Assembly (NCBI GenBank): GCA_018608435.1 | Contig: JABAZV010000023.1 | Location: forward strand, 1 to 32,275 | Reading direction: 5' to 3' | Length of the DNA: 32,275 bases | DNA from: Patescibacteria group bacterium | GTDB taxonomy: Bacteria; Patescibacteriota; Minisyncoccia; Phycocordibacterales; UBA918 | Shown: in pieces, positions 60 through 25,996 of the stretch | Layout: the number at the start of each line of letters is the position of its first letter | Position numbering within the stretch: the first letter of the stretch is position 1 | Translations under genes and position numbers: made by a program | Notes under the pieces: model-generated | What the model was told of the DNA's origin: nothing | Database searches by the model: none | The model's input: the letters and a program-made list of their open reading frames with translations, nothing else

Positions 60-1028
60 CTATTCCACGGCCACTTGTTTTCTGTGTGGCGTGCCGTGTT
101 TCCACATTACGCTTTCCAAATAAAAGTGTGACATGCAAAACAAAATAACAATCGCTTGACCAATAACAATCCCGTTAGACAAACTTCGCACCAAGTAGGC
201 AAACAAAAAACCCAGCACTGGTGTCAAAATAAAAACGGGCAAGGGAACGAAACTGAAAAATTTATAAAACCAATTTTTGTATTCGCCTCTGTTACGGTTA
301 TGGTCGTGAGTTATGTAAAAAGCAAAAGCACTGGCATCGTGCACAAATCTAAAAACCAAAAAAGCAAAGAAAGCGTAGTTAGCCAAAACAAAAAAATAAC
401 TTACGATAAACAATCCCGACACCCCAACTACGTACCAGCGCAGCATTCCTGAATACCGTCGAAACAAAAGAACAGTCACACAAAATAATGCAACGGATGA
501 CCCGAGTAAGATTTCGTTTATCTGATCAAAAATAAGTACAGGGATTACTTCCGGCAAAACCAAGAAAACATATACCAAGCTCGCGCTCACAAAAGGGAAG
601 ACTGTCCAAAGAGTATTTAGTAAACCTGGTTTTGCCCCCAAGATAAGACCGATGCCGACCTTTTGTCTAACTCCGTGCCAGACGTCATTTAAAAAAAAGA
701 ACAACAGACCGTAGCGCACATCAAAATAAAGAAGTATCCCAGTAGCCAAAAGAAGCAAGGGTAAATAAATCAACATGTGTTTACGATAGTGAGAAATGTA
801 CTCAGTATCAAAAAAACTAAACCAACTAGCAGCAATGTGTGGCAGCAAAAAGAAAAATAAAAATACTGGGTGAAAAAGTGTCTCGACCCCGAAGTAAGGT
901 TGGAACGAATTATCTAGCAAAAAAATATCGACCAACACAAACAAAAGTATCGCCGGAACAATCAGGTAAACAGCCAAAAGATATTTTGTAGATATGGTAC
1001 GAAAAGATTCTGTTAGAGAAGGAGTCAT
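60..1028 (-). CDS. Polytopic membrane protein with conserved-looking histidine motifs, function unknown
   Basis: The product is about 322 residues, almost entirely hydrophobic, with roughly eight or nine predicted membrane segments. I chose the ATG at 1028 (MTPSL) over the upstream TTG at 1040 because the latter adds only four residues and has no start signal. Polar residues cluster at membrane edges: LLPHIAASW, NDVWHGVRQK, FVHDASAFAFYITHDHNRN and a C-terminal HFYLESVMWKHGTPHRK. Buried His/Asp motifs of this kind are typical of membrane metalloenzymes (for example Brp/Blh-type oxygenases or desaturase-like proteins), but I cannot place the family, so this is only a structural analogy. It stands alone on the minus strand behind the Xer gene, and its stop is TAG. 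A possible -10 (TGG-TAAAAT) lies about 27 bases upstream of the ATG on the minus strand, without a convincing -35. Confidence 0.75.
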   Translation of the reverse strand: MTPSLTESFRTISTKYLLAVYLIVPAILLFVLVDIFLLDNSFQPYFGVETLFHPVFLFFFLLPHIAASWFSFFDTEYISHYRKHMLIYLPLLLLATGILLYFDVRYGLLFFFLNDVWHGVRQKVGIGLILGAKPGLLNTLWTVFPFVSASLVYVFLVLPEVIPVLIFDQINEILLGSSVALFCVTVLLFRRYSGMLRWYVVGVSGLFIVSYFFVLANYAFFAFLVFRFVHDASAFAFYITHDHNRNRGEYKNWFYKFFSFVPLPVFILTPVLGFLFAYLVRSLSNGIVIGQAIVILFCMSHFYLESVMWKHGTPHRKQVAVE

Positions 1029-1159
1029 GATGACAAGCAAAAGTCTATTTCCGACATTTTACCACAACGCTATAATATGTGTCTTGATCAAGCCAAAGAG
1101 CTGCAAGTTGATTTGTAAAAAAACTAGCACAAACAAGACACATGATTTTAATTACTTTT

Positions 1160-2035
1160 TTATTTTTTATTTTTTAAGTAAGCTTGTGTGGTGTTGATGT
1201 CTAAATGTCCAAGCTGCGCTTGCAACGTACGCAGATCAGCACCACTTTGTATGACATTGGCAGCGAAGCTGTGTCTAATTATTTGCGGTGTAACTTTACA
1301 AGTAATGCCTACTGCAGTTGCGTATTTGTTTATCAGTCGCTGCACAGCCCTTGGTGAAATCCGCGAATCACCGCCATCATTTTGCTTTCGTCCATAACGC
1401 ACAAACAAAACTTCTTCTGCATCTTTACGACTGTCTAAATAATCAATCAGTGCAATCCGCAAAGCGTCGGAGACAAACAGGATTCTTTCATCACCATTTA
1501 TTCCGCGCAAAGAAAACTCTTCGGCACCGACATCAATATCATGGACCGATAAAGAGCACAGTTCCGAAATACGCAAACCGGTTGAAAGAAATAATTCTAA
1601 AATTGCTTTGTCACGCTTTCCTTCAAGAGTCTTTGTATCAGGAGCAGCGATGAGCCGCTTCATGTCTTCAGGAGAAATCACATCGAATGATTCTTCAGAT
1701 ATTTTTTCCAACAAAATTCGTCTAGGCAACAGAGAAGGAATGTCATTCTGATTTAAGTATTTCAAAAATGCCCGAATTGCAATCAGGTAATGATTTAGCG
1801 TGCGCTTTTTCATGACAGCTTTTTTGCCGTTTGCTTTGGAGCCAGGTTGTTGACTGAGATGTGTTTTGAATTTAGCAACCGCGCCTTCCGTAATGTCACT
1901 CGCTTTTTTGATTTTACCAAAATAAAAAAAGCGAGTTAAGCAACGGTCGTAATTTTCGACAGTCTTTGGGCTACGATCACGCTCAACTTCGAGGTATTCG
2001 ATAAACTGCCGCTTTTGTTTTTTTACACTTCCCAT
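1160..2035 (-). CDS. Tyrosine recombinase, Xer-like, with altered active site
   Basis: The product is 291 residues and has the two-domain Xer layout. The N-terminal SAM-like core-binding domain (FIEYLEVERDRSPKTVENYDRCL) occupies about residues 8-100 and the catalytic domain follows. Box I arginine is present in STGLRISELCSL, box II arginine in IIRHSF, the late histidine in LGHLD and the nucleophile tyrosine in TQAYLKNKK. Two catalytic positions differ from E. coli XerD by my alignment: the beta-hairpin lysine (GKGNKER in XerD) is isoleucine here (GINGDER, codon ATA), and the first His of HxxR is glutamine (PQIIR, codon CAA). The protein ends six residues counted from Tyr, so the C-terminal donor helix used in XerCD cyclic contacts is missing. 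The ATG at 2035 is preferred over 2068 because an extended -10 box sits six bases before it. It could be a weakened dimer-resolution recombinase or a regulatory or decayed homologue. Confidence 0.85.
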   Translation of the reverse strand: MGSVKKQKRQFIEYLEVERDRSPKTVENYDRCLTRFFYFGKIKKASDITEGAVAKFKTHLSQQPGSKANGKKAVMKKRTLNHYLIAIRAFLKYLNQNDIPSLLPRRILLEKISEESFDVISPEDMKRLIAAPDTKTLEGKRDKAILELFLSTGLRISELCSLSVHDIDVGAEEFSLRGINGDERILFVSDALRIALIDYLDSRKDAEEVLFVRYGRKQNDGGDSRISPRAVQRLINKYATAVGITCKVTPQIIRHSFAANVIQSGADLRTLQAQLGHLDINTTQAYLKNKK

Positions 2036-2232: not shown

Positions 2233-2499
2233 ATGTTAAGCAAAAGAGTAAAGGAGAACGAGCTTAAAAAAGCTCAACGTCACGACAGTGACACTGGTTC
2301 ACCAGAAGCACAAGTAACACTTTTGACTCGCAAGATCGAAGAGCTTTCAAAGCACTTGCGAAAAAACAAAAAAGATTTTCATTCACGACGCGGACTGCTA
2401 CAGATGGTGGCAGATCGACGCAAGCACTTGGGTTATATGCAACGTAAGAATTACGATTCATACCTTGACATCATCAAGAAGCTTGGCTTGAAACGTTAA
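2233..2499 (+). CDS. rpsO: 30S ribosomal protein S15
   Basis: The product is 88 residues, the normal length for S15, a primary 16S rRNA binding protein that organises the central domain of the small subunit. The family signatures HDSDTGSPEAQVTLLTRKI (residues 17-35) and KDFHSRRGLLQMVADRRKHLGYM (residues 47-69) are intact and the basic C-terminus KKLGLKR is typical. The ATG follows ACAACTAAT, without a Shine-Dalgarno sequence. The gene has its own promoter and structured leader, and a hairpin terminator follows, so it is probably transcribed alone. In many bacteria rpsO lies directly before pnp. Here a NYN-domain gene is inserted between them, on the same strand. Identification is secure. Confidence 0.97.
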   Translation: MLSKRVKENELKKAQRHDSDTGSPEAQVTLLTRKIEELSKHLRKNKKDFHSRRGLLQMVADRRKHLGYMQRKNYDSYLDIIKKLGLKR

Positions 2500-3547: not shown

Positions 3548-5662
3548 ATGAAATCTAAATCTTTCTCTCTCAATCTTGCCGGCAAAAACTTAACCGCTGA
3601 ATTTACAGACCTTGCCGGACAAACTAACGGCTCAGTATTATTGCGTTATGACGAAACGGCTATTTTGGTTACAGCTGTAATGAATAGCGAACCAAATACT
3701 CAGGCTGACTACTTTCCTTTATCAGTTGAGTTTGAAGAAAAATTTTATGCAGCCGGCGCAATTCTAGGCAGTCGCTTTATGCGCAGAGAAGGAAGACCAA
3801 GTGACGAAGCGATCCTTTCGGCTCGGATTGTGGATCGCACAATCAGACCGCTGTTTGATAGCGCAACACGCAACGATGTACAAATTGTCATTACCGTACT
3901 CGCAATCGGCGAAGAGGATCCTGACGTACTAGGCATCATCGGCACCTCGCTCGCTCTCGCTGTGTCTGATATTCCTTGGCGCGGTCCTGTTGGCGCTGTG
4001 AGGATTGGACGCAACCGAAAGAGCGGTGAAATAATCCTCAATCCAACATATACCGAACGTGCAAAAAATCTGCTCGATTTTGAAATCCTGGCTTGCGGAA
4101 AAAACGGTACAGTGAACATGATCGAAACAGCCGCCGACGAAGTAAGCGAGCAAGACATAATGTCAGTACTAGAAGCAGCTGTCGAAATTCACAAGCAACT
4201 AGAAGAATGGCAAAAAAATATCATCGCTGAAGTCGGTAAACAGAAAAATGATAAAGACGAAGAAAAAGCACCACTTAGTATCACCGAACTTTTTAACTCA
4301 AATTTTGCAACCAAGCTACATGAAACAATTTTTTCAAACCAAGCAGGAAAAACACACATACAAAAAGTTAAGAAAGGATTTTTGTCCGCTGCAATCAAGG
4401 GTGAGCTAGACACGACTGTTGCCAGCAGTTACTTTGAAAAACAAATAAATAAGATGCTTCATCATGGCGCAATCGAAGAAAACTTACGAGCCGACGGCAG
4501 AGACTTTAATCAAGTCCGACCGCTGTTTGCAAAAGCTGGTGGAGTCTCGCCTGTGTTGCACGGCTCAGGAATTTTCTACCGTGGCGAAACTCATATTTTT
4601 TCAGCGCTCACTCTTGGCGGTAGAGGTGCCGCCCAGCTCTTAGACACAATAGAATCTCATAATACAAAAAAGAGTTTTATGCACCACTACAACTTCCCGC
4701 CATTTTCAGTGGGGGAAACAGGGCGCATCGGTGGCTTCAATCGACGCATGATTGGACATGGGGCGTTAGCCGAGAAAGCACTAGCGCCAGTGATTCCTGC
4801 GCAAGAATCATTTCCCTACACAATTAGATTAGTTTCAGAAACAATGTCTTGCAACGGATCAAGTTCAATGGGATCAGTCTGCGCTTCTACACTAGCACTA
4901 CTAGATGGTGGCGTACCGATAAAAAAACCGGTCGCAGGCATCGCAATCGGAGCTATGATACAAGGCGATAAATACAAACTCCTAACTGACATTCAAGGAC
5001 CTGAAGATGAATTCGGCGACATGGATTTTAAGATAGCCGGAACGAGTGAGGGAGTTACAGCAATGCAAATGGATATCAAGACAGACGGAATATCTTTACA
5101 GATATTACGCGAAGCTTTTGAACAAGCCAGAGAAGCGCGCGCGCAAATACTAGAAACCATTCAAGCAGAAATACCATCACCAAGAGCGACGATTTCAGAC
5201 CGTGCGCCACAAATTGTCTCGCTTAAAATTAACCCCAATCAAATCGGCTTGGTTGTAGGCAGCAAAGGAAAGACGGTCAAGAAAATAAAAGAAGAAACTC
5301 ACATTGAAGAAATAGACTTTGAAGACGATGGCACAATCTACCTTTCTGGTTTACGCACTAATGTGGAAGCTGCTGCTCACATAATCGAATCACTAACAAA
5401 AGAATACGAAGCGGGAGAATCAGCAGTTGCCAGCATCACCAAAATTACAAACTTTGGTGCGTTTGCAAAAATCAATGAACACGTTGAAGGGCTTATTCAT
5501 ATTTCTGAGATAGCTCCATTTAGAGTTGAAAACATTCGACAGCTCTTGCAAGTAGGGGACGAAGTTAAGGTTGTAGTCACCAAAGTTGAAGATGGTAAAA
5601 TTGGACTTTCGATAAAGGAAGCTGATCCTGACAGATTCTCTACATTTGCACCAGAGCAGTAG
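3548..5662 (+). CDS. pnp: Polyribonucleotide nucleotidyltransferase (PNPase)
   Basis: The product is 704 residues, the usual PNPase length. It degrades RNA 3' to 5' by phosphorolysis and can add tails. The order is first RNase PH domain (residues about 10-235, with RPSDEAILSARIVDRTIRPLF), a helical linker, second catalytic RNase PH domain (about 310-545, with LRADGRDFNQVRPL, FPPFSVGETGRIGGFNRRMIGHG and the metal-site block FGDMDFKIAGTSEGVTAMQMDIK), KH domain (INPNQIGLVVGSKGKTVKKI, about 560-620) and C-terminal S1 domain (SITKITNFGAFAKINEHVEGLIHISEI, about 625-695). All parts are intact. The ATG at 3548 follows TTATAT with no Shine-Dalgarno. A strong terminator follows. It lies two genes after rpsO, close to the common rpsO-pnp arrangement. 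Identification is secure. Confidence 0.98.
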   Translation: MKSKSFSLNLAGKNLTAEFTDLAGQTNGSVLLRYDETAILVTAVMNSEPNTQADYFPLSVEFEEKFYAAGAILGSRFMRREGRPSDEAILSARIVDRTIRPLFDSATRNDVQIVITVLAIGEEDPDVLGIIGTSLALAVSDIPWRGPVGAVRIGRNRKSGEIILNPTYTERAKNLLDFEILACGKNGTVNMIETAADEVSEQDIMSVLEAAVEIHKQLEEWQKNIIAEVGKQKNDKDEEKAPLSITELFNSNFATKLHETIFSNQAGKTHIQKVKKGFLSAAIKGELDTTVASSYFEKQINKMLHHGAIEENLRADGRDFNQVRPLFAKAGGVSPVLHGSGIFYRGETHIFSALTLGGRGAAQLLDTIESHNTKKSFMHHYNFPPFSVGETGRIGGFNRRMIGHGALAEKALAPVIPAQESFPYTIRLVSETMSCNGSSSMGSVCASTLALLDGGVPIKKPVAGIAIGAMIQGDKYKLLTDIQGPEDEFGDMDFKIAGTSEGVTAMQMDIKTDGISLQILREAFEQAREARAQILETIQAEIPSPRATISDRAPQIVSLKINPNQIGLVVGSKGKTVKKIKEETHIEEIDFEDDGTIYLSGLRTNVEAAAHIIESLTKEYEAGESAVASITKITNFGAFAKINEHVEGLIHISEIAPFRVENIRQLLQVGDEVKVVVTKVEDGKIGLSIKEADPDRFSTFAPEQ

Positions 5663-9838: not shown

Positions 9839-10840
9839 TTAGAACGGGTTACGAGCACCTCGTACTTCAAAGTGAAGGTGAGTACCAGTTGAACGACCGG
9901 TGCTTCCCATGCCGCCAATTACTTGTCCTTGTGCAACATAAGCTCCTACCCCAACATCATTGCGCATGAGGTGAGCGTAAAGCGTTTGTGATCCGTTAGC
10001 GTGCTTAATAACCATGTAGCGACCGTAGCCACCATTCCAACCTGAGCTTTTAGAAACAATTACTGTTCCTGCTGCCGCAGCTCTAATTGGTGATCCTTGA
10101 TAAGAAGCCAAGTCTACAGCATTGTAGCCATGCACTCCCTGTGTACGAACCGATCCTGGTGCAGGGTGTGAGAAACCAGCTGACGAAGCTGTGGGGGCAG
10201 CAGCTGTAGAACTTTTTGCTACTGACTTTACTGCCGAGTGCATAGCACCACCTGGAATAATAAGCGTTTCACCTACCATCAGATCGTCTGCTGAAGCGAG
10301 CTGATTATATGAAAGTATTTCTTCCGCGTCGCTGTCATATTTTTTAGCGATAACTCCGATTGTGTCACCTCTTTTAACAACATGACGGACACCAGTAATT
10401 GGCAAAATTACCAAAGTATCTCCAGACCGAATATCAGTGGCTCGTTTCAAGTCGTTTGCCCACAGGATAGTGTTTGTTTTAATAGAGAACATATCGGCAA
10501 TCTCTGACAAAGAGTCACCTTCGCGTACAGTATAAAGGCGAATTTCTCCCATCCCGTCTTTTTGTTCAGCAATTACATCCGCTCCAACCGGACCAGTTGA
10601 AACCAGAGTGTTTTCATTAACCACGATGTCAGCTCCACCGCGAGAAGCTTTTGGATTTGGGTTGGTAAGCGCTGTAAGCAAAGGCATGTCGACCACTGTT
10701 GGGGAAGTAATAACCGCAGCAGCAGCCATATCAGCACTACTAGAGAAAAAACGTTCAAACCAGCCAGCGTGTGCCAGTAAAGGAAAACTGATGATAGCTG
10801 CTAATAGTAAGAGTTCCGCAGCAAGTCGCAGGCGGTTCAT
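9839..10840 (-). CDS. Secreted LysM-M23 family cell-wall hydrolase
   Basis: With the ATG at 10840 the product is 333 residues and begins with a textbook signal peptide (MNRLRLAAELLLLAAIISFPLLAHA, cleavage before GWF). Longer starts at 10873 (ATG) and 11116 (TTG, ORF track) add non-signal-like sequence. Two LysM peptidoglycan-binding repeats follow (YTVREGDSLSEIADMFSIKTNTILWAN and HVVKRGDTIGVIAKKYDSDAEEILSYN), then a C-terminal M23 metallopeptidase domain ending just after HLHFEVRGARNPF. The first zinc-ligand motif reads VHGYNAVDLA, so the His lies six residues before the Asp instead of the canonical four (HxxxD). The HLH motif is intact. The likely role is cleavage or remodelling of peptidoglycan peptides. 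It is transcribed alone. Confidence 0.88.
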   Translation of the reverse strand: MNRLRLAAELLLLAAIISFPLLAHAGWFERFFSSSADMAAAAVITSPTVVDMPLLTALTNPNPKASRGGADIVVNENTLVSTGPVGADVIAEQKDGMGEIRLYTVREGDSLSEIADMFSIKTNTILWANDLKRATDIRSGDTLVILPITGVRHVVKRGDTIGVIAKKYDSDAEEILSYNQLASADDLMVGETLIIPGGAMHSAVKSVAKSSTAAAPTASSAGFSHPAPGSVRTQGVHGYNAVDLASYQGSPIRAAAAGTVIVSKSSGWNGGYGRYMVIKHANGSQTLYAHLMRNDVGVGAYVAQGQVIGGMGSTGRSTGTHLHFEVRGARNPF

Positions 10841-11060
10841 TACTTCAAATGTATGTGTGTCCTGACGCGCCATGCATATAGCAGGCTCGTCATTGTCTGT
10901 ATTTTGGTATTTAATATGCTGTTTGTTTGGTCTCGCCGCCGTTATAGTCTCAAACTTCCGTGCCAGAATGGTATGTATTATTTTAAATGCTAAAGTGAAA
11001 TAAAATAAATACTGAAAAATAAAAAGAGCACTCTTGCTCAAGAAACTTTTTGTTTGTTCA

Positions 11061-15400: not shown

Positions 15401-16852
15401 ATGGATACTTTCATTGACAATTTCTTTCTTTTCTTAAAACGGGGCCTGATCGCACTAATGTTAATCATGTTTGGCACTGTAATGGTATACGTTCCGCACA
15501 ACTGGAATGAAGTACCCCAAGCAGAAGCTGGTGCAGCCGGTGGAGGGTCGACGTTACCTGGTCAGTTAGTGGCGTTGGTGCAGCAGACATATAACGCTGT
15601 AAAAAACACCATAACTGCGATAGCCAATAAAGCCCAGGCTGTCTTTGCACAAGACCTATGGCTTAAAGAAACTATTCTTGATGGTGTTTTTTGGTCCTTA
15701 GCTAAAAAATTCGTTTCTTCCATGGCTCAAAGCACGATAGACTGGATAAACGGCGGGTTTGAAGGCAAACCAGCTTTCGTTAGCGATCTTAAACAATTTT
15801 TACTTGATGAAACAGACGAATTTATAGGTGAATTCATAAGCAATTTAGGCGCAATTGGATCTTTTATATGTGACCCTTTTAAGCTTAACGTTCAGATTGC
15901 TGTTCAGCTCCAGCATCAAGAAACACGCACCAACCAAGCTTCTGCTTGTACGTTGACTGGAGCACTTGCAAACTTGGACGATTTCATCAAAGGAACGCAA
16001 GGAAGCTTTTCTGAACAAGGCGGCTGGGAAGCGTGGTTTGATATAACTTCAGAACCAAAAAAGTACACACCCTTCGGCGCCATTGTTTCAACTCAGGCAG
16101 TTGCAGAAGTAAGACTGTCAAACCTGAAAGAGGAGGAAACAGCCAAAATTGGCTGGGCTAAAGGTTTTTTCTCTATCAGAGACGACTGTCCTACAGTTAC
16201 ATCTGCTTCTGGTATTCAAGAAACACGGTGCTCAATCATAACTCCTGGATCTGCCATCGCTTCAGCTTTAGACAACAACCTTGACTCTGGTCGTCAGGCT
16301 TTGCTTGAAGCTGACGAAACTAACGAAGTTCTCGGCGCTCTGATAGGCGGGCTAGCCCAACAAGCTTTTACGGGTGCCGCTGGACTACTCGGACTTTCAG
16401 ATCGTGGCGCAGATACTGATGGTGACGGAATTGGTGACACTTACGACTCTTACCTAGACAAACTCGGTATTGAAGATGGTGTTCTAAGCGCCACAAGCAG
16501 CTTAGCCCAAATGGAAGAAGCTCTTGCAATACAGATAGCAATGAGTTCATCATCTTCCGCTTACGAACCATTACTGTTAGCTTTGTCTACTAACTATATT
16601 ACATCTGAAGAAGTGAGGACAGATTCCGAAAAAGCATCAATAGATGCTCAAGAAATAATAATCGAGGCGACAGGATACCAAACAAGTATTCAAGCTCTTA
16701 TTACTGAGTATGAAACAGAGCTTGCAAAGGATAAACCAGACAATAACAAGATTACGGACATTCTTATTCGCTATAACCAGTTGGATAAATTCTCTGAATT
16801 TGATATTGAAATCAAAGAAAGTGAGTGGGATAGCATCTTGGCACGCGAGTAA
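15401..16852 (+). CDS. Membrane-anchored protein with Asp-rich calcium-like loop, T4SS cluster
   Basis: The product is 483 residues. It begins with an uncleaved anchor or signal segment (LKRGLIALMLIMFGTVMVYVP, residues 13-33) followed by a Gly/Ala stretch. The body contains amphipathic segments and paired cysteines (IGSFICDPF and ASACTLTG; DDCPTV and ETRCSI) that could form disulfides outside the membrane. Near residue 335 is ADTDGDGIGDTYDSYLDKLG, a clear DxDxDGxxD calcium-type loop. The C-terminal 130 residues are helical and acidic. It directly precedes the VirB6/TrbL-like channel gene (20-base gap), a position that suggests it works with the channel. The family is not recognised. The second Asp-loop protein in a row is notable. 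GGAG lies 12 bases before the following ATG, one of the few Shine-Dalgarno-like strings here, though badly spaced. Confidence 0.75.
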   Translation: MDTFIDNFFLFLKRGLIALMLIMFGTVMVYVPHNWNEVPQAEAGAAGGGSTLPGQLVALVQQTYNAVKNTITAIANKAQAVFAQDLWLKETILDGVFWSLAKKFVSSMAQSTIDWINGGFEGKPAFVSDLKQFLLDETDEFIGEFISNLGAIGSFICDPFKLNVQIAVQLQHQETRTNQASACTLTGALANLDDFIKGTQGSFSEQGGWEAWFDITSEPKKYTPFGAIVSTQAVAEVRLSNLKEEETAKIGWAKGFFSIRDDCPTVTSASGIQETRCSIITPGSAIASALDNNLDSGRQALLEADETNEVLGALIGGLAQQAFTGAAGLLGLSDRGADTDGDGIGDTYDSYLDKLGIEDGVLSATSSLAQMEEALAIQIAMSSSSSAYEPLLLALSTNYITSEEVRTDSEKASIDAQEIIIEATGYQTSIQALITEYETELAKDKPDNNKITDILIRYNQLDKFSEFDIEIKESEWDSILARE

Positions 16853-16872
16853 AATTGGAGAGCGAGTAAAAT

Positions 16873-19086
16873 ATGACCACAGCTAAAAAACAATCCATAC
16901 TTACAACAACCTTCTTTATAGCAGTGTTGTTGTTGCTTCCTGAATTTGCTTACGCAGACCCTGTTGAAAATAAGGTTGCTGGATTGATGTGGAGTATGGT
17001 AGTAACTGTGTTTGGTACCTTCATGGCCATGGGTGGTAATTTGCTCGACTGGTCAATAGAATTGTTTGTTATTGGTTTTGGTGACAACTTTACCGACACA
17101 GGCGTAGGTGGGGCGGTTGAAAACCTCTGGGTTATTGTCCGAGACCTCTTCAACCTGACTTTTATATTTGGTTTAGTTTATCTTGGCTTCAAGATGATTC
17201 TAGGCAGCGACGATAATCGCACCAAAGTTTGGCTGGCTCACCTTATAATCGCAGCTTTGCTAGTCAATTTCAGTCTCTACATAACCAAGTTAATTGTTGA
17301 CATCAGTAATATCCTAGCTACACAAATTGTTCTAAATGGACTATCTGCACCCACAGGAGAAGTAGCTATTTCTACCATTTTTGCCGACAGTCTTGGTGTG
17401 CAAGGGGTATTCAGTAAAGAAGAACTTCCTCCACAATTGGCAGAAACTGGTGCCTTTGGCTTCGTTATTGGCTCAATGATTTTGTTTTCTGTGGCCGGGT
17501 TTGTTTTTGGAGCTGGTGGAATGCTTATCACTATTCGCTTCGCTGCTCTTTGTCTTTATATGGCACTTTCTCCCCTCATGTTCCTTGGATGGGTATTCCC
17601 ACAACTAGAAGGCACTGTCAGGAAGTACTGGAGTGGTTTTCTGAAGCGCGCTTTCTTTGCTCCAATCTACATGCTATTACTCTATTTTGCTGGCACGGTT
17701 CTCCAAGCTTATAGCGTTTCAGTAGATGCAAGTGGTAATAAAAGTTTTACCGCTCTTTTTGCCGGAACAGGTAAAGAAAAGATGGACAGCTTTGCGGACA
17801 CCTTACCGCCTTTTATTCTTTCTTGTATTTTCTTGTTTGCTGCGATCACTGTATCCAACAACCTTTCCGCTGACGGTTCAAACAAGGTCATGGCTTTAGG
17901 AAAAAACTTAGCTGGTCGTGCCCGAAGAATGACCGCAAACACCGCTATGTATGTACCGCGGAGGGCAGGTAGGGCTGCTGCAGCAGCCGGAGGGGCTGCA
18001 GCTGGTACCGTTGGAAGAAGACTCAGCTACAATCTCGGCAACAGCTTAGAACAGTCTTTGAATCGTCGTCAAGAATCTACAGGTATTGCCGGCAGAATAG
18101 CGAGGTCAACCTTTGTTGAAGACAGAGTACGTGGCGGGGCGCGCAATATGCAGAACGCAAAGTTTGGCAGACAATACACCATCGACGAACAGCAAGCTCG
18201 TGCGAACACCCTTGCTCAAGAACAAACTAATAGAGACAACCGGAGGAATGGACCAGAGGGAATGAACAGTAGTGATCCTGAAACAGCAGCTAGAGCAGCA
18301 GCTGACACAGCTCGAGCAGTTGCACAAATGCCTAATGAGGAATTGGTCCGACAATCAGTCAAGACTCTTACAACTGGTGGTATTGCCAAGAATTTGTCAG
18401 ATGCTCAAATCAAGACACTGGGTGAATCTGGACGATTCACTGCTGAAGATATTAAGAAAATTAAAACAGGTCGAGACACTGATGCTTTAAAAGATCTGAT
18501 CGACGCAACCAATAAGACCGGCGCGACCGAAGCTGAGCTTGCGAAAGCATCAGAAGAACTGAGCAAAGCTGTTAGATCATTCTCTGACGAAAGAATTAAG
18601 GGGCTTGATAAAGAATATCGTAATAAGCCAGAAATTGCTGCTGCTATGCGTCAGGCTTCTGCCGATAAGCTCCTAGAGTCAGATGATGTATCGCAAGCGG
18701 ACAAAGAAGCTTTGAGTACAGCACGAAAGGCAGGGTTTGTAAGCATAGCAGGTAGTAAAAGCCCTGCAAGAATTAGAGATATGCTTAAGAACACTCCAGC
18801 TCAAAAAATACCGGCTGGAGTGATGGCCAATGCTGAAGTGCTGAAATTAATGACAACCAACACGATGATGCAACACCTAAAAGAAGTTAATGACGTCAAT
18901 CACATTAAAGAGATTGAGACAGGCATGAACGACTACCTTGCAAATCATGCTACTCCCGAAGAAAGGGAAATGTGGAAAAAGGCACAACAAAAATCAGATA
19001 CTATGTCTACCTCTATGCAATTAAACTTTGATGGAAACGCAACCGGGTCTGTCATATTAGACCAAAACGGAAACCCTTTTACTTAA
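16873..19086 (+). CDS. VirB6/TrbL-like T4SS channel protein with long hydrophilic tail
   Basis: The product is 737 residues. A signal peptide (TTFFIAVLLLLPEFAYA) is followed by about six or seven membrane segments up to residue about 335, including LWVIVRDLFNLTFIFGLVYLGFKMIL, WLAHLIIAALLVNFSLYITKLIVDI and LYMALSPLMFLGWVF. The pattern of conserved aromatic and polar residues is that of the TrbL/VirB6 family, the polytopic inner-membrane subunit of T4SSs. Residues about 345-737 are hydrophilic and rich in Ala, Arg, Lys, Asp and Glu (RRAGRAAAAAGGAAAGTVGRRL, then repeated charged helices), much longer than in classical VirB6. The basic start of the tail suggests it is cytoplasmic. It may contact VirB4 or cargo, as inference. 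It lies 10 bases before the next gene in the same unit. Confidence 0.82.
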   Translation: MTTAKKQSILTTTFFIAVLLLLPEFAYADPVENKVAGLMWSMVVTVFGTFMAMGGNLLDWSIELFVIGFGDNFTDTGVGGAVENLWVIVRDLFNLTFIFGLVYLGFKMILGSDDNRTKVWLAHLIIAALLVNFSLYITKLIVDISNILATQIVLNGLSAPTGEVAISTIFADSLGVQGVFSKEELPPQLAETGAFGFVIGSMILFSVAGFVFGAGGMLITIRFAALCLYMALSPLMFLGWVFPQLEGTVRKYWSGFLKRAFFAPIYMLLLYFAGTVLQAYSVSVDASGNKSFTALFAGTGKEKMDSFADTLPPFILSCIFLFAAITVSNNLSADGSNKVMALGKNLAGRARRMTANTAMYVPRRAGRAAAAAGGAAAGTVGRRLSYNLGNSLEQSLNRRQESTGIAGRIARSTFVEDRVRGGARNMQNAKFGRQYTIDEQQARANTLAQEQTNRDNRRNGPEGMNSSDPETAARAAADTARAVAQMPNEELVRQSVKTLTTGGIAKNLSDAQIKTLGESGRFTAEDIKKIKTGRDTDALKDLIDATNKTGATEAELAKASEELSKAVRSFSDERIKGLDKEYRNKPEIAAAMRQASADKLLESDDVSQADKEALSTARKAGFVSIAGSKSPARIRDMLKNTPAQKIPAGVMANAEVLKLMTTNTMMQHLKEVNDVNHIKEIETGMNDYLANHATPEEREMWKKAQQKSDTMSTSMQLNFDGNATGSVILDQNGNPFT

Positions 19087-19096
19087 ACTTATAAAT

Positions 19097-19687
19097 ATGT
19101 CTACCATCAATGCTTTAGAACTATTTCAAACAGCCTACCAAAGCGCTGCACCTGAAAAAAAGTTTGCCGTCGACAATAACCTAGTGTCACAATGTGTGGA
19201 AACATTAGTCGCAAACCACGCGCTCGATGATTCTCAGCATGTGCCACTGATACGAACCGGTGTTCTACTTACTCTTAACGCTATTGATATAGACACTGCC
19301 CAACGAGAGCTTATGCAACTTGGTGTACCGAACGCAGCCCAAGTAATTGGCGAACTCTGGGGCTGTGTTAACAACAGCATAAACGCCGCCGCCCAGCAAC
19401 CACAAGCAGTAGCACCGGTAATCGCTCCACCTCAACCACAAATAGCAGTAGCACCGGTTGAGTCAATCTACTCCAGCACACAATCTGCTATTTTGCATGA
19501 AGCAGAGAGGATGATCCCGGCGCAACCCGCACCAGTTCAACGACCAGTCAATCCAGCTGCAGTACACCAACCCACTGCAGTCGCTCCAGCCGCACCGAAC
19601 CCGGCAGTAATGCCAATACCAACACAAACCCCGCCTCCAACTTTAGCTGAAAAAGATCACATCGCTAGGTGGGGTAAAGCAGAGTAG
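19097..19687 (+). CDS. Small protein with helical N-domain and Pro/Ala/Gln linker, T4SS cluster
   Basis: The product is 196 residues with no membrane segment or signal. Residues 1-100 are predicted helical (ALELFQTAYQSAAPEKKFAVDNNLVSQCVETLVANHALDD). Residues 100-190 are rich in Pro, Ala, Gln and Val and contain a partial internal repeat (PQAVAPV and PQIAVAPV; the DNA GCAGTAGCACCGGT occurs twice, 39 bases apart). The C-terminus has ESIYSSTQSAILHEAERMIP and LAEKDHIARWGK, which look like short binding motifs. It follows the VirB6-like gene by 10 bases and is followed by a terminator, so it ends the first transcription unit of the cluster. A cytoplasmic adaptor is plausible, but no family is recognised. 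Confidence 0.7.
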   Translation: MSTINALELFQTAYQSAAPEKKFAVDNNLVSQCVETLVANHALDDSQHVPLIRTGVLLTLNAIDIDTAQRELMQLGVPNAAQVIGELWGCVNNSINAAAQQPQAVAPVIAPPQPQIAVAPVESIYSSTQSAILHEAERMIPAQPAPVQRPVNPAAVHQPTAVAPAAPNPAVMPIPTQTPPPTLAEKDHIARWGKAE

Positions 19688-19717
19688 GGTAGAAAAAATA
19701 TGTATATAAAAATGAGG

Positions 19718-19741
19718 GCGCACTTTTGTGATGCTTTTTTT
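19718..19741 (+). terminator. Terminator inside the T4SS-like cluster
   Basis: GCGCAC-TTTT-GTGATGC (short stem with one bulged A and a G.T pair) is followed by seven T residues. It splits the cluster into an upstream unit (14.5-19.7 kb) and a downstream unit starting at the PrgI gene. Confidence 0.7.
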
Positions 19742-19832
19742 AAAATTTACTTTAAGAACCCTTTGTTGTTTTGAAGTGAATATATCTGGGGATAGTTAGG
19801 CCCTTACAATGAATATAAAAACTCCAAACGTG

Positions 19833-19838
19833 TATAAT
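19833..19838 (+). promoter_or_regulatory. Consensus -10 box before the PrgI-family gene (near-leaderless)
   Basis: A perfect TATAAT, preceded directly by TG, ends eight bases before the ATG at 19847. No good -35 is visible. It restarts transcription of the cluster after the terminator at 19718. Confidence 0.6.
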
Positions 19839-19846
19839 GATGATGT

Positions 19847-20272
19847 ATGAGATTTGAAGTTCCACAATTTATTGATATTGAAGACAAAATCTTCGGCCCT
19901 CTTTCGTGGCGGCAATTCCTGTATGTAGGCGGGGGAGTTGGTATGGCGGCCGTGATGTTTTTTACACTACCTTTTATAGTTGCGGTAATTTTTGGCCTAC
20001 CTCTTGCTCTTCTGGCTGGTGCCTTGGCTTTCTTTCCGGTAAACAACAGACCTTTTTCCTTTTTCCTCGAATCGATTTTAAACTATTTTACCCGCCAAAG
20101 AATGTATCTTTGGAGGCAAAAGAATGAGGTAGTCTACACAAACGACACTACTGTAATCAAGAAAAACTCTTACATTGATGGAGCCGTCGCACCGACAGTA
20201 AAAAAGCAACACAAGGATCTCACAGCGCTCGCTCGCGACCTAGAATTACAAGCCCTTCAAAAGAACGAATAA
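19847..20272 (+). CDS. PrgI family T4SS inner-membrane protein
   Basis: The product is 141 residues. It starts MRFEVPQFIDIEDKIFGPLSWRQFLYVGGG, the characteristic opening of PrgI-family proteins of Gram-positive-type T4SSs. Two close membrane segments follow (residues about 27-65, FLYVGGGVGMAAVMFFTLPFIVAVIFGLPLALLAGALAFFP) and then FFLESILNYFTRQRMYLWRQK, a soluble tail. PrgI occupies the role of VirB3, holding the VirB4 motor at the membrane. The ATG is supported by the TATAAT eight bases upstream. It is separated by one base from the TraC-like gene, so the two are translated together. Confidence 0.9.
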   Translation: MRFEVPQFIDIEDKIFGPLSWRQFLYVGGGVGMAAVMFFTLPFIVAVIFGLPLALLAGALAFFPVNNRPFSFFLESILNYFTRQRMYLWRQKNEVVYTNDTTVIKKNSYIDGAVAPTVKKQHKDLTALARDLELQALQKNE

Positions 20273-20273
20273 T

Positions 20274-20915
20274 ATGCCTTCTACTAAAGCAGCGACACAA
20301 GACTTCGTTCCCATCAAAGACGTTAAAGATAACGTGGTTATTCATAAGAATGGCCAAATGAGTATGGTTGTTTTAGCTTCTTCGGTAAACTTCGCGCTTA
20401 AATCACTAGATGAACAGAAAGCGATATTGATCCAGTTTCAGCAGTTCCTAAACACGTTAGACTTCACTCTGCAGATCTACGTTCAATCTCGTCGCTTAAA
20501 CATTGAGCCTTACCTAAAATTTCTTGGTGAACTAGAAGGGAATCAAAATAACGATCTTATGCGTATTCAGTTACGTGAATACATAGAATTTATTCGCACC
20601 TTCACCGATGATGTTGATGTGATGAGTAAAAACTTTTTCGTTGTTGTTCCATATTCACCGTCAAAAGTTAACTTTACTAAAGGCATCACTAACATGCTTT
20701 CACCAAAGCAAAAACCTACAGCCGGTCAAGACGCCAGTAAAATCAACTTTGAAGAACATCGACTTCAGCTCGAGCAAAGACTTGGGGTAGTGTCAGAAGG
20801 ACTAGCCAGAGTTGGCGTGCGCACAATAACACTGCAAAAAGACGATTTGGTTGAACTTTTTTATCACCTTTACAATCCAGGAGACTCGACAGGCTCAGCA
20901 CCAATCGTCGAATAA
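20274..20915 (+). CDS. TraC-like protein, separate N-terminal partner of VirB4
   Basis: The product is 213 residues without membrane segments. The sequence FVPIKDVKDNVVIHKNGQMSMVVLASSVNFALKSLDEQKAILIQFQQFLNTLDFTLQIYVQSRRLNIEPYL matches the N-terminal region of VirB4/TraC-type ATPases, which in CPR and some Gram-positive systems is encoded as a separate small gene. It has no Walker motifs. The ATG at 20274 lies one base after the PrgI stop (TAATATG), and the gene ends 10 bases before the VirB4 ATG. The order PrgI, TraC-like, VirB4 is the family's usual one. It likely docks the ATPase onto PrgI at the inner membrane; this is inferred from family and context. Confidence 0.82.
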   Translation: MPSTKAATQDFVPIKDVKDNVVIHKNGQMSMVVLASSVNFALKSLDEQKAILIQFQQFLNTLDFTLQIYVQSRRLNIEPYLKFLGELEGNQNNDLMRIQLREYIEFIRTFTDDVDVMSKNFFVVVPYSPSKVNFTKGITNMLSPKQKPTAGQDASKINFEEHRLQLEQRLGVVSEGLARVGVRTITLQKDDLVELFYHLYNPGDSTGSAPIVE

Positions 20916-20925
20916 CAAATTTAAT

Positions 20926-22731
20926 ATGGGACTTACAGACTTCTTAAAACCACCGCAAAACAATAATAATGGTGCAGAAAAAATGAGTGATAAGCTACTT
21001 ACTTTGAGTGACGTTATTGCACCCTCTGCAATCAGTATCACACCGCGTAGCATAAATTTGAGTGGCGTTGATGTACGTGTCCTATACGCAGTGTCTTATC
21101 CTCGCTACCTAAATGACGGTTGGATAGAGCCCATTTTAAACATAGCGAAAGAAATGGATGTTTCTATTTTTATCCACCCAATCGACACAGCTGATACTCT
21201 AAAGAAATTTCAAAAAAAGGTCGCTGAGGTGCAGAGTCAGATAAACATGAAAGCTGAGAAGGGAGAGGTTAGAGACCCGCAACTGGAAGCTGCTTACAAC
21301 AACCTAGAAGACTTGCGCGACAAACTACAACAAGCAGAGGAGAAGCTTTTTGACGTTGGTTTTTACCTAGCTATTTATGGTGAATCTGAAGATGATTTAA
21401 ATAAATCTGAAAATGAAATAAGGGGTATTCTAGACTCTAGACTAATATCACTTAAGCCGGCACTGTTTCAACAAGAACAAGGAATAAAAAGTATTATGCC
21501 GCTCGCAGGCGACGAGTTACTTGTGCACAGCAAGTTTAATTCTGAACCTCTGGCTAGCTTTTTTCCTTTCACATCTTTTGACCTAACCTCTGACACAGGA
21601 ATTCTTTACGGCATCAACCGACACAACTCCAGCCTGGTTTTGTTCGATCGCTACAGCCTTACTAACTACAACTCTGTAACCTTTGCCACTTCTGGAGCAG
21701 GGAAGTCTTACGCTTTGAAGCTTGAAATTTTACGCTCACTCATGTTTGGAACCGAGGTGATTGTACTTGACCCTGAAAAAGAGTATGAGTACTTAGCCGA
21801 CGCAACCGGAGGACGCTTCTTTGATATTTCCCTATCTTCAAGCCACCACATCAACCCTTTTGACCTACCACCTCCGCGTGACGACGAAGATCCACGCGAC
21901 GTTTTGCGAACACACGTTATTGAATTAGTAGGACTATTTCGTCTTATGCTCGGCGGACTTACAGCTGAGGAAGAAACTCTTATAGACTTAGCAATCCAAG
22001 AAACCTATGCCCTTAAAGACATTACTGGCGACACCAACTTTGGCGAACAGGAACCACCACTTTTGTCTGACTTTGAAATGGTGCTGGCAGGAATGGACGG
22101 TAGTGCCTCTTTAATCACACGTTTACAAAAATACACATCTGGAACCTGGTCTGGATTCATGAACAAACCAACCAACGTAGACATTTCCCAAAAATTCGTT
22201 GTATTTTCTCTGCGTGACATGGAAGATGAGCTGAAGACTATCGCCATGTACATTATTACAAACTATATCTGGAACTCAGTTAGACGTCGACTAGCAAAAC
22301 GCCTGATGGTTATTGACGAGGCTTGGTGGATGATGAAAAGTGAAGACACAGCTTCTTTCTTATTTTCACTAGCAAAGCGTGGTCGTAAGTACTATCTAGG
22401 AATTGCCACTATTACACAGGACGTGGACGACTTCCTCCGTTCTCCTTATGGCGTACCAATGATCACCAACTCGTCAATTCAGTTTCTAATGAAACAGTCA
22501 CCAACTGCCATCGACAACATCCAAAAAACTTTCAACCTCACAGATGAAGAAAAGTTTTTGCTGCTGGAGTCTAATGTGGGGGAGGGAGTATTCTTTGTCG
22601 GACTGAAACATGTCGCCATCAAAATAATTGCATCTTACACCGAAGATCAAATCATCACCTCAGACCCGTCTCAGCTAATACAGATTCAAAACTCTAGAGA
22701 TGAACTGAACGCATCCAAGGGTAAGCGATAA
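20926..22731 (+). CDS. virB4: VirB4-family T4SS ATPase
   Basis: The ORF track starts at 20851 inside the previous gene. The ATG at 20926 (MGLTDFLKPP) is preferred because it follows the upstream stop with the usual short spacing. The 601-residue product has a VirB4 N-domain with a coiled-coil segment (KKVAEVQSQINMKAEKGEVRDPQLEAAYNNLEDLRDKLQQAEEKLF). The ATPase domain has Walker A TSGAGKSYALK (about residue 255), LDPEKEYEYLADATGGRFFDIS, Walker B RLMVIDEAWWMM (about 459) and the downstream LAKRGRKYYLGIATITQDVDDFL typical of VirB4/TraC. All catalytic elements are intact. VirB4 powers pilus assembly and substrate movement. No VirD4 coupling ATPase or VirB11 is visible in the window. Confidence 0.95.
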   Translation: MGLTDFLKPPQNNNNGAEKMSDKLLTLSDVIAPSAISITPRSINLSGVDVRVLYAVSYPRYLNDGWIEPILNIAKEMDVSIFIHPIDTADTLKKFQKKVAEVQSQINMKAEKGEVRDPQLEAAYNNLEDLRDKLQQAEEKLFDVGFYLAIYGESEDDLNKSENEIRGILDSRLISLKPALFQQEQGIKSIMPLAGDELLVHSKFNSEPLASFFPFTSFDLTSDTGILYGINRHNSSLVLFDRYSLTNYNSVTFATSGAGKSYALKLEILRSLMFGTEVIVLDPEKEYEYLADATGGRFFDISLSSSHHINPFDLPPPRDDEDPRDVLRTHVIELVGLFRLMLGGLTAEEETLIDLAIQETYALKDITGDTNFGEQEPPLLSDFEMVLAGMDGSASLITRLQKYTSGTWSGFMNKPTNVDISQKFVVFSLRDMEDELKTIAMYIITNYIWNSVRRRLAKRLMVIDEAWWMMKSEDTASFLFSLAKRGRKYYLGIATITQDVDDFLRSPYGVPMITNSSIQFLMKQSPTAIDNIQKTFNLTDEEKFLLLESNVGEGVFFVGLKHVAIKIIASYTEDQIITSDPSQLIQIQNSRDELNASKGKR

Positions 22732-22739
22732 TTGTTATT

Positions 22740-22766
22740 TTATCTCCGTTTTATAAGCGGAGATAA
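22740..22766 (+). terminator. Hairpin after virB4
   Basis: TTATCTCCG pairs with CGGAGATAA over 9 bp around TTTTATAAG. There is no T-run after it on the plus strand, so it may end or only slow transcription, or stabilise the 3' end. Confidence 0.5.
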
Positions 22767-22815
22767 TTAGTAAATTACTCAGACTGGTCACACGAACACA
22801 TTATTGCATGTGTAG

Positions 22816-22821
22816 TATACT
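22816..22821 (+). promoter_or_regulatory. -10 box before the gene at 22831 (near-leaderless)
   Basis: TATACT ends nine bases before the ATG at 22831. No clear -35 and no TGn extension are present. Confidence 0.5.
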
Positions 22822-22830
22822 AATTTGAAT

Positions 22831-23688
22831 ATGGACCCAAATTCTGGCAAAGGCGAAAATAAGCAGGATTCAACTGTCAATCCGCGCACTTTCCCGCGCA
22901 TGATTTCTGCTGATCGCTCTAGTTACAGCGAACCAATATCAAGCATTCGTAATGTGAATACAGACAGAATAAAAACAACTGGTTCTGGTTTTTACAAAAC
23001 TTCCACCAAGCAGAACTACGGCAAGAAAAAAGAAAAGTTTGTTAACCCTCACCCAACTACAGACCAGAAATTTAGTGGTGGATATAAAGACCAGGGAATA
23101 CAATCATACTCACCGCTTGACGACGAACCTGCAAAAAACAATTACGACTCAACCTACAATGTACAAACATCAAGTCCTGCACAATCAGCAGCAAACCAAC
23201 CAACATTTAGACAAATAGCAAAGAGGAGGGCTGCTGCTAAAAAAATAAAGATAAAGACCACTTCATCAAAAGCAAGAATTAAGAAAGATCGATTGAAATG
23301 TCGAGCATATACCTGGGCTTTTATCCGCTCTTGGGTTCTTTTTATGTATCCATTTCAAATAACTCTTGGCTTTTATGCTCTAATCGCGTTTGGTGTAGGC
23401 GGTACCGTAGCAAAAATAGTTTCTTTTGTTGGTATCGATATAACCACTAGCGCTCTTAGTGTTGGTTTTGCTTTTAATTTTTTACTTTTCTTTTTGTACG
23501 GCATATGTCAAAACTTGGTCGTATACTTTATGTACAGAATTGCAGGCTATGCGCCTCTTTCTGGCCGGAAAGATGGAGTAAAGATGGTGACCTTAGCATT
23601 GTGCCTAACCGGCACAATGACACCACTTCTAAACCTTTTTCCTTGGACTTTATTGTGGACAATGGTGATAGTTAGGTATCCCAAATAA
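22831..23688 (+). CDS. Membrane protein with disordered N-terminal half, T4SS cluster
   Basis: The ATG at 22831 (MDPNSGKG) is preferred over the TTG at 22825. The 285-residue product has a disordered, polar N-terminal part (residues 1-125, rich in Ser, Asn, Lys and Gln), then a basic stretch (RQIAKRRAAAKKIKIKTTSSKARIKKDR) consistent with a cytoplasmic side. Three membrane segments occupy about 165-190, 208-238 and 252-283 (IRSWVLFMYPFQITLGFYALIAFGVG; GFAFNFLLFFLYGICQNLVVYFMY; LLNLFPWTLLWTMVIVRY). No enzyme motif is seen and the family is not recognised. Its position directly after virB4, with its own -10 box, suggests an inner-membrane accessory of the apparatus. A GUX-type or anchor function cannot be distinguished. 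Confidence 0.72.
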   Translation: MDPNSGKGENKQDSTVNPRTFPRMISADRSSYSEPISSIRNVNTDRIKTTGSGFYKTSTKQNYGKKKEKFVNPHPTTDQKFSGGYKDQGIQSYSPLDDEPAKNNYDSTYNVQTSSPAQSAANQPTFRQIAKRRAAAKKIKIKTTSSKARIKKDRLKCRAYTWAFIRSWVLFMYPFQITLGFYALIAFGVGGTVAKIVSFVGIDITTSALSVGFAFNFLLFFLYGICQNLVVYFMYRIAGYAPLSGRKDGVKMVTLALCLTGTMTPLLNLFPWTLLWTMVIVRYPK

Positions 23689-23737
23689 TCCTGTCCACCA
23701 TCAAATTGAGTCGACAGCCCTAACAAAGCTAATCGTC

Positions 23738-23746
23738 TGGTATGAT
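23738..23746 (+). promoter_or_regulatory. Extended -10 promoter before the gene at 23757 (near-leaderless)
   Basis: TGG-TATGAT ends ten bases before the ATG at 23757. The overlapping GATACT would end seven bases before it. No -35 is seen. Confidence 0.5.
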
Positions 23747-23756
23747 ACTTGTATAT

Positions 23757-24701
23757 ATGCATAAACTAATACAAATCGGCACCTTTATATTTTGCTTGTT
23801 TATTCTTGCCAATCCAGCCCAAGCCCAGCTTAAAAATAACGCCAGCATTGAACTGTCACCCGAATACCCGCAACCTGGTGAAGAAGTCACCGCTAGTCTT
23901 AATGATTTTCGTTCAAGCACCAACAACTCAAACTTAACCTGGACACTAAATGGAGAAACGGTTCCGTCTGCAGTCAACAGTCGTAGTGTGTTATTTACAG
24001 CAGGCGCTGATGGAGTAACAGACGTCTTATCAATCATAATAGATTCACCGCTTGGCAGAAGTGAAACCATAAACCGCAACGTAAATCCAGTATACGTAGA
24101 CGTTATCATCGAACCGCAGACCCATGTACCTAATTTTTATCAAGGCCGATCTTTGCCCAGTATTGGAAGCATTGTGAACGCAACAGCTGTTGTGAGTGGA
24201 CATAACCCGAGTGATCTTGTCTACAAATGGCAAGTTGGTAGCGAAGTATTGGCTGGCGGGGCAGTACGTGGTATAAACCAAGTCTCATTCACTACTCCGA
24301 TGGGATTTAATTATGTTTTAAATTTACAAGTATCTTCTGCAACGGGCGGTATCATATCGAAAAGATCAGTATTTCTACCATCAGTATACCCGCGTCTATT
24401 TTTCTACGAAAAACACACCCTGTCCGGCATTAGACCTATAGCTATAGACAGGGAATTTACTCTTATTGAAAACAGTACTTCCATAATAGCCTCTCCTTAT
24501 TATCTTGATTCAAGGACTTTTAATGATCCTGATATTTCAGAATGGGAAATAGACAACAATTTGGTAAACAGCGGAAACAACCCTTATGAAGCAACCATTC
24601 GAAGAAACAGTGAGCGAGGAAGGTCTTCCTTAAAATTCCACGTTCGTGACACAACCCAAGTGCTGCAGGGGGTAAGTGAATCTATATCTATAAACTTCTA
24701 A
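23757..24701 (+). CDS. Secreted beta-rich (Ig-like) protein, T4SS cluster
   Basis: The ATG at 23757 is chosen because it gives a clean signal peptide (MHKLIQIGTFIFCLFILANPAQA, cleavage before Q) and follows an extended -10 box; the ORF-track start at 23742 adds five residues. The mature protein is about 290 residues, rich in Ser, Thr, Asn and Val with alternating beta pattern. Segments such as IELSPEYPQPGEEVTASLNDFRSSTNNSNLTWTLNGE and SLPSIGSIVNATAVVSGHNPSDLVYKWQVG look like successive Ig/PKD-type domains. There is no C-terminal sorting signal or second membrane segment, so it is exported and held by a partner or released. It is five bases from the next gene, so the two are co-transcribed. 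The family is not recognised. An external part of the pilus or a surface adhesin is plausible. Confidence 0.72.
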   Translation: MHKLIQIGTFIFCLFILANPAQAQLKNNASIELSPEYPQPGEEVTASLNDFRSSTNNSNLTWTLNGETVPSAVNSRSVLFTAGADGVTDVLSIIIDSPLGRSETINRNVNPVYVDVIIEPQTHVPNFYQGRSLPSIGSIVNATAVVSGHNPSDLVYKWQVGSEVLAGGAVRGINQVSFTTPMGFNYVLNLQVSSATGGIISKRSVFLPSVYPRLFFYEKHTLSGIRPIAIDREFTLIENSTSIIASPYYLDSRTFNDPDISEWEIDNNLVNSGNNPYEATIRRNSERGRSSLKFHVRDTTQVLQGVSESISINF

Positions 24702-24705
24702 TTTT

Positions 24706-25989
24706 ATGAAACGTCCACTTTTCATCATTCTGAGTGTTGTCACCGTTATTCTTCTTTTGGCTGTTTGGATCTATATTCTTTTCTTCAACACCAACTCACC
24801 AAGTAGCAATGATGGTAATAATGATTTTGCCGGAGTAAACCTTGGAGACACTACCGACATGAACACCAATCAGTTTTCCGAGCAAAACAGCAATAATGAA
24901 GACAACTCAGACAACATAAGAGTAGACATGACAGATGACTCTTCTCGACTGCAGCAGCTTACAACCAAACCAACTATCGGTTTTTCTGAAGTGCAAAGAA
25001 CACCAAGCTCCACACCAAGTTTCTATTATATCGAAGCAGGAACTGGAAATATTTTCTCAATTAATACTGTTACAGGTAATGAAGAAAGGGTTTCTGCCAC
25101 AACTATTTCACTTAGTCATAAAGGGGGAATAACACCTAATGGAGAATTTGTAATGATCGAATCTGGACAAGGAAATAGGAGCGAGTTTACTGTCGCTTCA
25201 ATAGACCATACTAACAACAGACTTAATGCTGCTACGCTAGACGAATCTATCATTGATTTTAAAGCAACTACTGACAACACATTCCTCTACGCAGCTATTG
25301 AGGACAGGGGAGTAGCTGTTAATCACTACTATCCAATAAGTGACACTAGTGAGACACTGTTCACCATTCCATTCCAAGAGGTCACAATCGAGTGGGGGAG
25401 TAACTCTCTAGACACCCACTATTTCTATCCAAAAGCCAACAGTCAACTAGAAGGTTTTCTTTATGCTGGTAAAGACAATAGCGTGACAAGATTACCTTTG
25501 TCCGGATACGGTTTTGCTGCCGCTGGTAGTGAAGATATAATTATCTATGCAAAACAAGAAAAAGGTGATTACATTGGCTATGTTTACAACACCAACGACC
25601 AATCATCAACAGAGTTAGGTTTTTCCTTTTTACCTAAAAAGTGCATCGCTGTTTTGGGTAACGTTGTATGCGCGCTTAGTATTTCTGACTATAATCAAGA
25701 ATTTCCAGATAAATGGTATATGGGTTCCTATATAGCTAAAGATAGTCTTTGGCACATTGAAGCAGGTACTAACCGAGGAACTTCTCTAGCTGATCCTGAA
25801 GACGAGACTGGTCGTACGTTAGACATTATAAATATGCAACACAGTATTTCTACCAACAGTTTGTATTTTATAAACAAAACAGACCAAACGGCCTGGATGT
25901 TACGTGAAGCTATTCCTGAAAGAGAAAATATTGTGATCACAGATGAACCTGACACCGATCAAACAGAGATTAATGTCGACGAAAACTAA
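24706..25989 (+). CDS. Membrane-anchored beta-propeller-like protein, T4SS cluster
   Basis: The product is 427 residues. It begins with one N-terminal anchor (RPLFIILSVVTVILLLAVWIYILFF, residues 3-27), then a Ser/Asn/Asp-rich spacer (residues 30-75), then a domain made of repeated short beta strands: PSFYYIEAGTGNIFSINTVTGNEERVS, GEFVMIESGQGN, EDIIIYAKQEKGDYIGYVYNTNDQSS, NSLYFINKTDQTAWMLRE. This pattern of aromatic strands followed by turns resembles a WD40-like or TolB-type propeller, a structure-level guess. The C-terminus is acidic. It lies seven bases before the pilin gene and five after the Ig-like gene, so all three form one unit. The spacer places the propeller away from the membrane, where it could scaffold or cap the pilus. 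Confidence 0.7.
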   Translation: MKRPLFIILSVVTVILLLAVWIYILFFNTNSPSSNDGNNDFAGVNLGDTTDMNTNQFSEQNSNNEDNSDNIRVDMTDDSSRLQQLTTKPTIGFSEVQRTPSSTPSFYYIEAGTGNIFSINTVTGNEERVSATTISLSHKGGITPNGEFVMIESGQGNRSEFTVASIDHTNNRLNAATLDESIIDFKATTDNTFLYAAIEDRGVAVNHYYPISDTSETLFTIPFQEVTIEWGSNSLDTHYFYPKANSQLEGFLYAGKDNSVTRLPLSGYGFAAAGSEDIIIYAKQEKGDYIGYVYNTNDQSSTELGFSFLPKKCIAVLGNVVCALSISDYNQEFPDKWYMGSYIAKDSLWHIEAGTNRGTSLADPEDETGRTLDIINMQHSISTNSLYFINKTDQTAWMLREAIPERENIVITDEPDTDQTEINVDEN

Positions 25990-25996
25990 TCTTTAT

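Follow-up and report, generated by a model that had tools for sequence, protein, structure and literature searches.

A truncated, probably displaced Xer-type recombinase gene beside rpsO in a Patescibacteria genome

The rpsO-linked xer locus

The window, i.e., the whole 32,275-nt stretch of DNA analysed here, is one contig (C5) of a MAG (G000) that comprises 949 kb in 23 contigs, with a completeness of 97.9% and a contamination of 0.11%; genomes across the host order are small (roughly 0.4–1.3 Mb). It carries a xer gene flanked by a membrane-protein ORF and a divergent rpsO-pnp pair (Table 1). We use W as the label for the rpsO-linked Xer family and G000 W for the window copy. The membrane-protein ORF has no Pfam match and occurs in only 3 of the 38 genus genomes, with two adjacent copies in G033. 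Elsewhere in the window, a type IV secretion-like cluster (15401–26602) lies among large membrane and secreted ORFs and includes a PrgI family protein (19847–20272) and a TraG/VirB4-like P-loop ATPase (20851–22731).

Table 1. Positions of the W-type xer gene, its altered sites and its neighbours in the window
Feature	Position	Strand	Remarks
Membrane-protein ORF	60..1040	(-)	Downstream of W xer; gene order same in the near relative G033
Perfect (TAAAAAA)x3 tandem repeat (TTTTTTA on plus strand)	1156..1176	(-)	Spans the last codons and the stop; truncation site
W-type Xer gene	1160..2035	(-)	ORF with ATG start, 291 aa; predicted from sequence to be inactive as a recombinase; without αN helix
Codon 286 TAC, nucleophile Tyr (Y286)	1178..1180	(-)	Retained, by alignment
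Codon 251 CAA, Gln251	1283..1285	(-)	Replaces catalytic His H-II; His in 36/36 intact orthologues
Codon 179 ATA, Ile179	1499..1501	(-)	Aligns with the catalytic hairpin Lys; Lys in 36/36 intact orthologues
rpsO (S15)	2233..2499	(+)	Divergent neighbour of W xer; marks the ancestral W-xer locus
pnp (PNPase)	3548..5662	(+)	Species marker and rate control

G000 W has the two-domain architecture of Xer proteins (PF02899/PF13495 plus PF00589), with an N-terminal SAM-like domain (PF02899, 44 bits) and a Phage_integrase domain (PF00589, 119 bits), both above the Pfam cut-off, and is 50–60% identical to its orthologues in the genus. A scan of contigs with the W protein as query returned only distant, unrelated integrases. 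The NCBIfam scores of G000 W fall below the equivalog cut-offs for XerA (205.5 vs 220), XerD (179.5 vs 329.6) and XerC (170.8 vs 335); the complete C-type copy described below is likewise under all three cut-offs, so this failure says little about W.

Catalytic residues, C-terminal tail and a second Xer

Residues were compared by alignment, first with 20 orthologues from the genus and 9 from the order and then with a total of 36 intact W proteins, 21 of them from the same genus. The six catalytic columns read R, K, H, R, H and Y in all 36. G000 W retains R-I (R155, within TGLRISEL), R-II (R254), H-III (H277) and the nucleophile Tyr, and its R-K-H-R-(H/W)-Y active site lacks K and H-II. The first-pass annotation had read the same states from the window (Lys to Ile, H-II to Gln, and R, R, H and Y kept). 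The H-II motif is PQIIRH, vs PHVIRH in relatives, and the β2-β3 hairpin is RGINGDER, vs RGKGDKIR in the alignment. An alternative hairpin alignment, equally good locally, has an inserted Ile, one deleted codon and Lys replaced by Asn (AAT). Under either alignment no Lys lies anywhere between residues 144 and 203. The annotation had asked whether Ile and Gln are conserved in the lineage; close relatives have Lys and His, as do all 36 intact orthologues.

The protein ends YLKNKK, with the stop five residues past Tyr, and is without the C-terminal αN helix (synapsis); intact W relatives have 18–29 residues after Tyr (n = 36; e.g., YTHVTDKHLREVHKKFHSK and THVTDKHLREVHKKFHSK). The annotation had the chain stopping six residues counted from Tyr with no alternative frame to extend it, and both statements hold, as nothing resembling the lost tail was found in any frame downstream of the stop. 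For the same reason we rejected a tail encoded in another frame and phase variation via the 7-bp repeat. XerA without αN still cleaves suicide substrates, but recombination is impossible and higher-order assembly is reduced (PMC3646895); tail loss by itself should thus end recombination by W, and the result disfavours the "catalytically slow partner" that the annotation had offered as one option.

A search of the G000 genome for PF00589 revealed, besides W, one further member (G000:C1:117736-118698), a C-type Xer of 321 aa with complete active site and tail. It is 36% identical to W and breaks 11 of 191 group-invariant residues (orthologue range, 0–20). The conjecture that W might be the only Xer in the genome is therefore false, and the unusual dimer resolution that a sole W would require is not needed, given a complete, normally constrained C-type. 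FtsK is also present, and dimer resolution in G000 is probably done by the C-type Xer. Contamination as the source of this gene was rejected: it lies on a 144-kb contig with housekeeping genes that shares its GC and tetranucleotide make-up with the window (tetranucleotide correlation, 0.973), and contamination of the bin is low. We also rejected a mobile integrase, since the gene follows zwf-gnd-pgl and no phage-like genes were seen nearby. Matches to the E. coli-type dif pattern across the 38 genomes stayed near the level of the reversed control. Our literature searches turned up no publication that deals with Xer or dif in this group.

Xer types in the genus and damaged W copies elsewhere

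Our survey of 38 genus genomes distinguished three Xer types, W, C and a third type, T. Nearly all of these genomes have one Xer (W, C or T), and a single W or C type suffices in most. Genomes with the C-type are scattered over the PNPase tree of the genus. The C-type is 69–73% identical between families and 67–85% inside the genus; identity between families as high as that within the genus suggests horizontal spread of the C-type. W and C co-occur inside the genus in G000 and G012, the W of G012 being intact, and in G005, which has a C-type, a contig ends after the first 20 W residues. Contigs G005:C13 and G026:C45 both break inside the W xer gene. At rpsO, no recognisable W was found in the C-type genomes G206, G094, G152, G177, G010 and G025, and in another C-type genome, G111, W is reduced to fragments with a stop.

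Tandem pairs of differing Xer-type genes, each a C-type or C-like gene plus a second one, were seen in G234 (C28:8481-9350 and 10039-10860; L186), G165 (C7:36569-38979) and G084 (C27:20578-22898) and are possibly two-recombinase units. As for the marker gene, the PNPase match in G002 (C1:105587-107985; L082) falls in two stretches ~300 bases apart, and six genus genomes (G017, G018, G020, G001, G059 and G006) have no full PNPase match, only short S1-domain matches; in the better-assembled of these six, pnp may really have been lost.

We searched for W in 18 genomes carrying a C-type or C-like Xer and then in family f51, to which G156 belongs. Three further damaged copies were found in this family, and all four damaged loci, that of G000 included, adjoin rpsO. 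The W of G156, which shares 35% identity with the intact G033 protein, has R-I changed to Lys, H-II to Gln and H-III to Tyr, keeps the nucleophile Tyr and ends 12 residues past it. In G234, Lys is changed to Thr and H-II to Gln, and the protein ends five residues past Tyr, while the W of G235 keeps its catalytic residues and ends four residues past Tyr, which fits tail loss coming first. Their siblings G236, G237 and G238 have an intact W. Of the four damaged proteins, three have lost H-II and essentially all have lost the tail; R-II, Tyr, R164-D165 and R248/R252/R256 of the Arg-rich helix are kept in every one, and none of the four ORFs has an internal stop. In the PNPase tree, G234 and G235 stand together, and G156 lies farther from them than the intact G236/G238 do, which points to at least two and probably three independent events of W damage, G000 included.

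Every genome in which we found a damaged W also carries a further Xer, which is a C-type in G156 and G234 and only a T-like protein in G235 (a 77%-complete bin). This association, along with the kept R-II, Tyr and Arg-rich helix, is what would be expected if W were a catalytically silent arm-binding partner of the C-type, the two forming a mixed tetramer in which W fills half of each recombination site. Such a W would accept the αN of the C-type and give none, and the C-type would perform one strand exchange, the junction being resolved otherwise. We regard this arrangement as very improbable: most C-type genomes have no W, so that their C-type acts unaided; in most genus genomes one type by itself is enough; and the two proteins in G000 share little identity (see above).

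Selection on W and the proposed displacement

Among 139 positions invariant in 21 orthologues, G000 W breaks 41, whereas the other orthologues break 0–4 each. The damage is equal over the two domains (13/44 and 28/95). PNPase of G000 breaks 22 of 308 invariants, and its ω is 0.067 on the G000 branch vs 0.027 elsewhere; fast evolution of the whole genome was rejected as the cause, as the PNPase and C-type controls show a modest effect only. A dN/dS analysis, proposed in the annotation, gave for W, under a two-ω codon ML model, an ω of 0.19 on the G000 branch vs 0.039 elsewhere, values that are rough and average the times before and after the loss, since synonymous sites on this long branch are nearly saturated. 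Both equality with the background (2ΔlnL = 14.3) and ω = 1 (2ΔlnL = 28.9) were rejected. Neutral simulation to the same damage yielded 5.4 stops on average, vs 0 observed (P(0) = 0.0025), and the observed replacements are more conservative than neutral ones (BLOSUM 0.27 vs −0.57, sd 0.25). G000 W thus departs from a pseudogene, for which an ω near 1, stops and frameshifts would be expected.

That the sequence itself is wrong, or that W still works as an Xer through an unusual active site, is barely credible. G000 W does rest on a single MAG; however, the differences are not confined to two residues but affect ~40 conserved sites along the entire protein, which makes sequencing error unlikely, and the frame is intact, the hairpin has no Lys at all, the tail is missing in every frame and the same class of damage occurs in independent genomes. 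The annotation had listed beforehand that Lys and His in relatives would signal error or recent decay. Relatives do have them, but ω below 1, the lack of stops, the recurrence and the number of altered sites oppose that conclusion.

The G234/G235 pair offers the best evidence that a truncated W may still be under selection, assuming that truncation preceded their split, an assumption that is not settled, as their stops lie at slightly different positions. Identity between the two is 92% for PNPase (dS about 1) and 58% for W, a protein change 8-fold that of PNPase. At codon positions one to three the W genes differ by 0.32, 0.23 and 0.57, and ω is 0.15 (about 0.33 with the PNPase dS), with ω = 1 rejected (2ΔlnL = 113.5).

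Taken with the Xer survey, these results lead us to a reading that we consider fairly probable: G000 W is a displaced Xer, inactive as a recombinase and still coding under weak selection. It would be the ancestral rpsO-linked Xer of its lineage, displaced by the patchily distributed C-type. Acquisition of the C-type, by taking over dimer resolution, would have released W, which would then have lost its αN helix as well as the hairpin Lys and H-II His, leaving it unable to complete recombination. W would nevertheless not be a plain pseudogene: its frame is open, and purifying selection, although weakened, would still act on it. The selected remainder would be DNA binding, with W serving as an accessory or regulator that no longer recombines; W may still hold DNA in this way, although we put a DNA-binding role for the retained protein at a little less than an even chance. 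The explanation starts from what was observed: the losses in W, the second Xer, an evolution of W that is relaxed without being neutral, and two or probably three independent occurrences. Against it, G012 carries a C-type beside an intact W, so the presence of a C-type is not sufficient, and the Xer seen beside W in G235 is of a type other than C, albeit in an incomplete bin.

The main competitor, which we judge unlikely but a real contender, is a plain relic: the displaced Xer would be functionless and drifting to loss, its open frame reflecting survivorship and a short time since release. Simple loss predicts the C-type genomes with remnants (G111) or no W at rpsO (the six listed above). The even damage in G000, which indicates no specifically protected DNA-binding part, and the position of the truncation on a slippage-prone 7-bp repeat point the same way. 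A relic is harder to reconcile with four damaged ORFs free of internal stops, with an ω well below 1, both in G000 and, with strong support, for G234 vs G235, and with replacements more conservative than neutral. The "decayed gene" of the annotation accordingly survives in part: Lys, H-II His and the tail are lost and many invariants broken, but ω, the absence of stops, the conservative replacements and the same state reached independently in another family speak against decay.

If W was indeed displaced, Xer has been exchanged within one genus, contrary to the usual view of it as a fixed housekeeping function. The W copies form graded stages, from intact beside a C-type (G012), through tail lost with active-site residues kept (G235) and tail and catalytic residues lost (G000, G156 and G234), to a fragment (G111) and complete absence. 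This series makes the order of loss, and a second job of an ex-recombinase, directly testable. It also carries a warning for annotation, in that a Phage_integrase match at a xer locus does not guarantee that the Xer works. An order-wide extension is rather doubtful, namely that Xer is swappable and incoming Xers repeatedly displace the resident, which each time loses αN and catalytic residues and so becomes a conserved non-recombining DNA-binding protein; the converted resident may then regulate or assist the new Xer or the rpsO-pnp neighbourhood.

Compared with known systems, most genomes of this genus resemble the single-recombinase XerA, XerS and XerH systems in that one Xer suffices. XerA is also the best NCBIfam match of G000 W (205.5 bits, below the cut-off of 220), and its closest solved sequence is 4a8e, which is XerC-like. 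Unlike XerA, XerS and XerH, G000 W is without the hairpin Lys, H-II His and αN, and a second complete Xer is present. G000 shares with E. coli XerC/XerD two Xer genes in one genome and the same two-domain architecture; in XerCD, however, both partners are catalytic and both donate their C-termini, whereas one of the two Xers in G000 is predicted to be non-catalytic and most relatives have a single Xer. Streptococci keep a "XerD-like" protein (HAMAP MF_01817) without the full catalytic residues beside a single working XerS, and G000 W, likened to it by its general description, is similarly an incomplete Xer beside a working one. What sets the genomes studied here apart is that αN is lost directly behind Tyr and that this happens at a conserved rpsO locus. 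What appears to be new is a putatively displaced Xer, judged inactive from its sequence, that sits at the conserved rpsO locus and recurs in the order.
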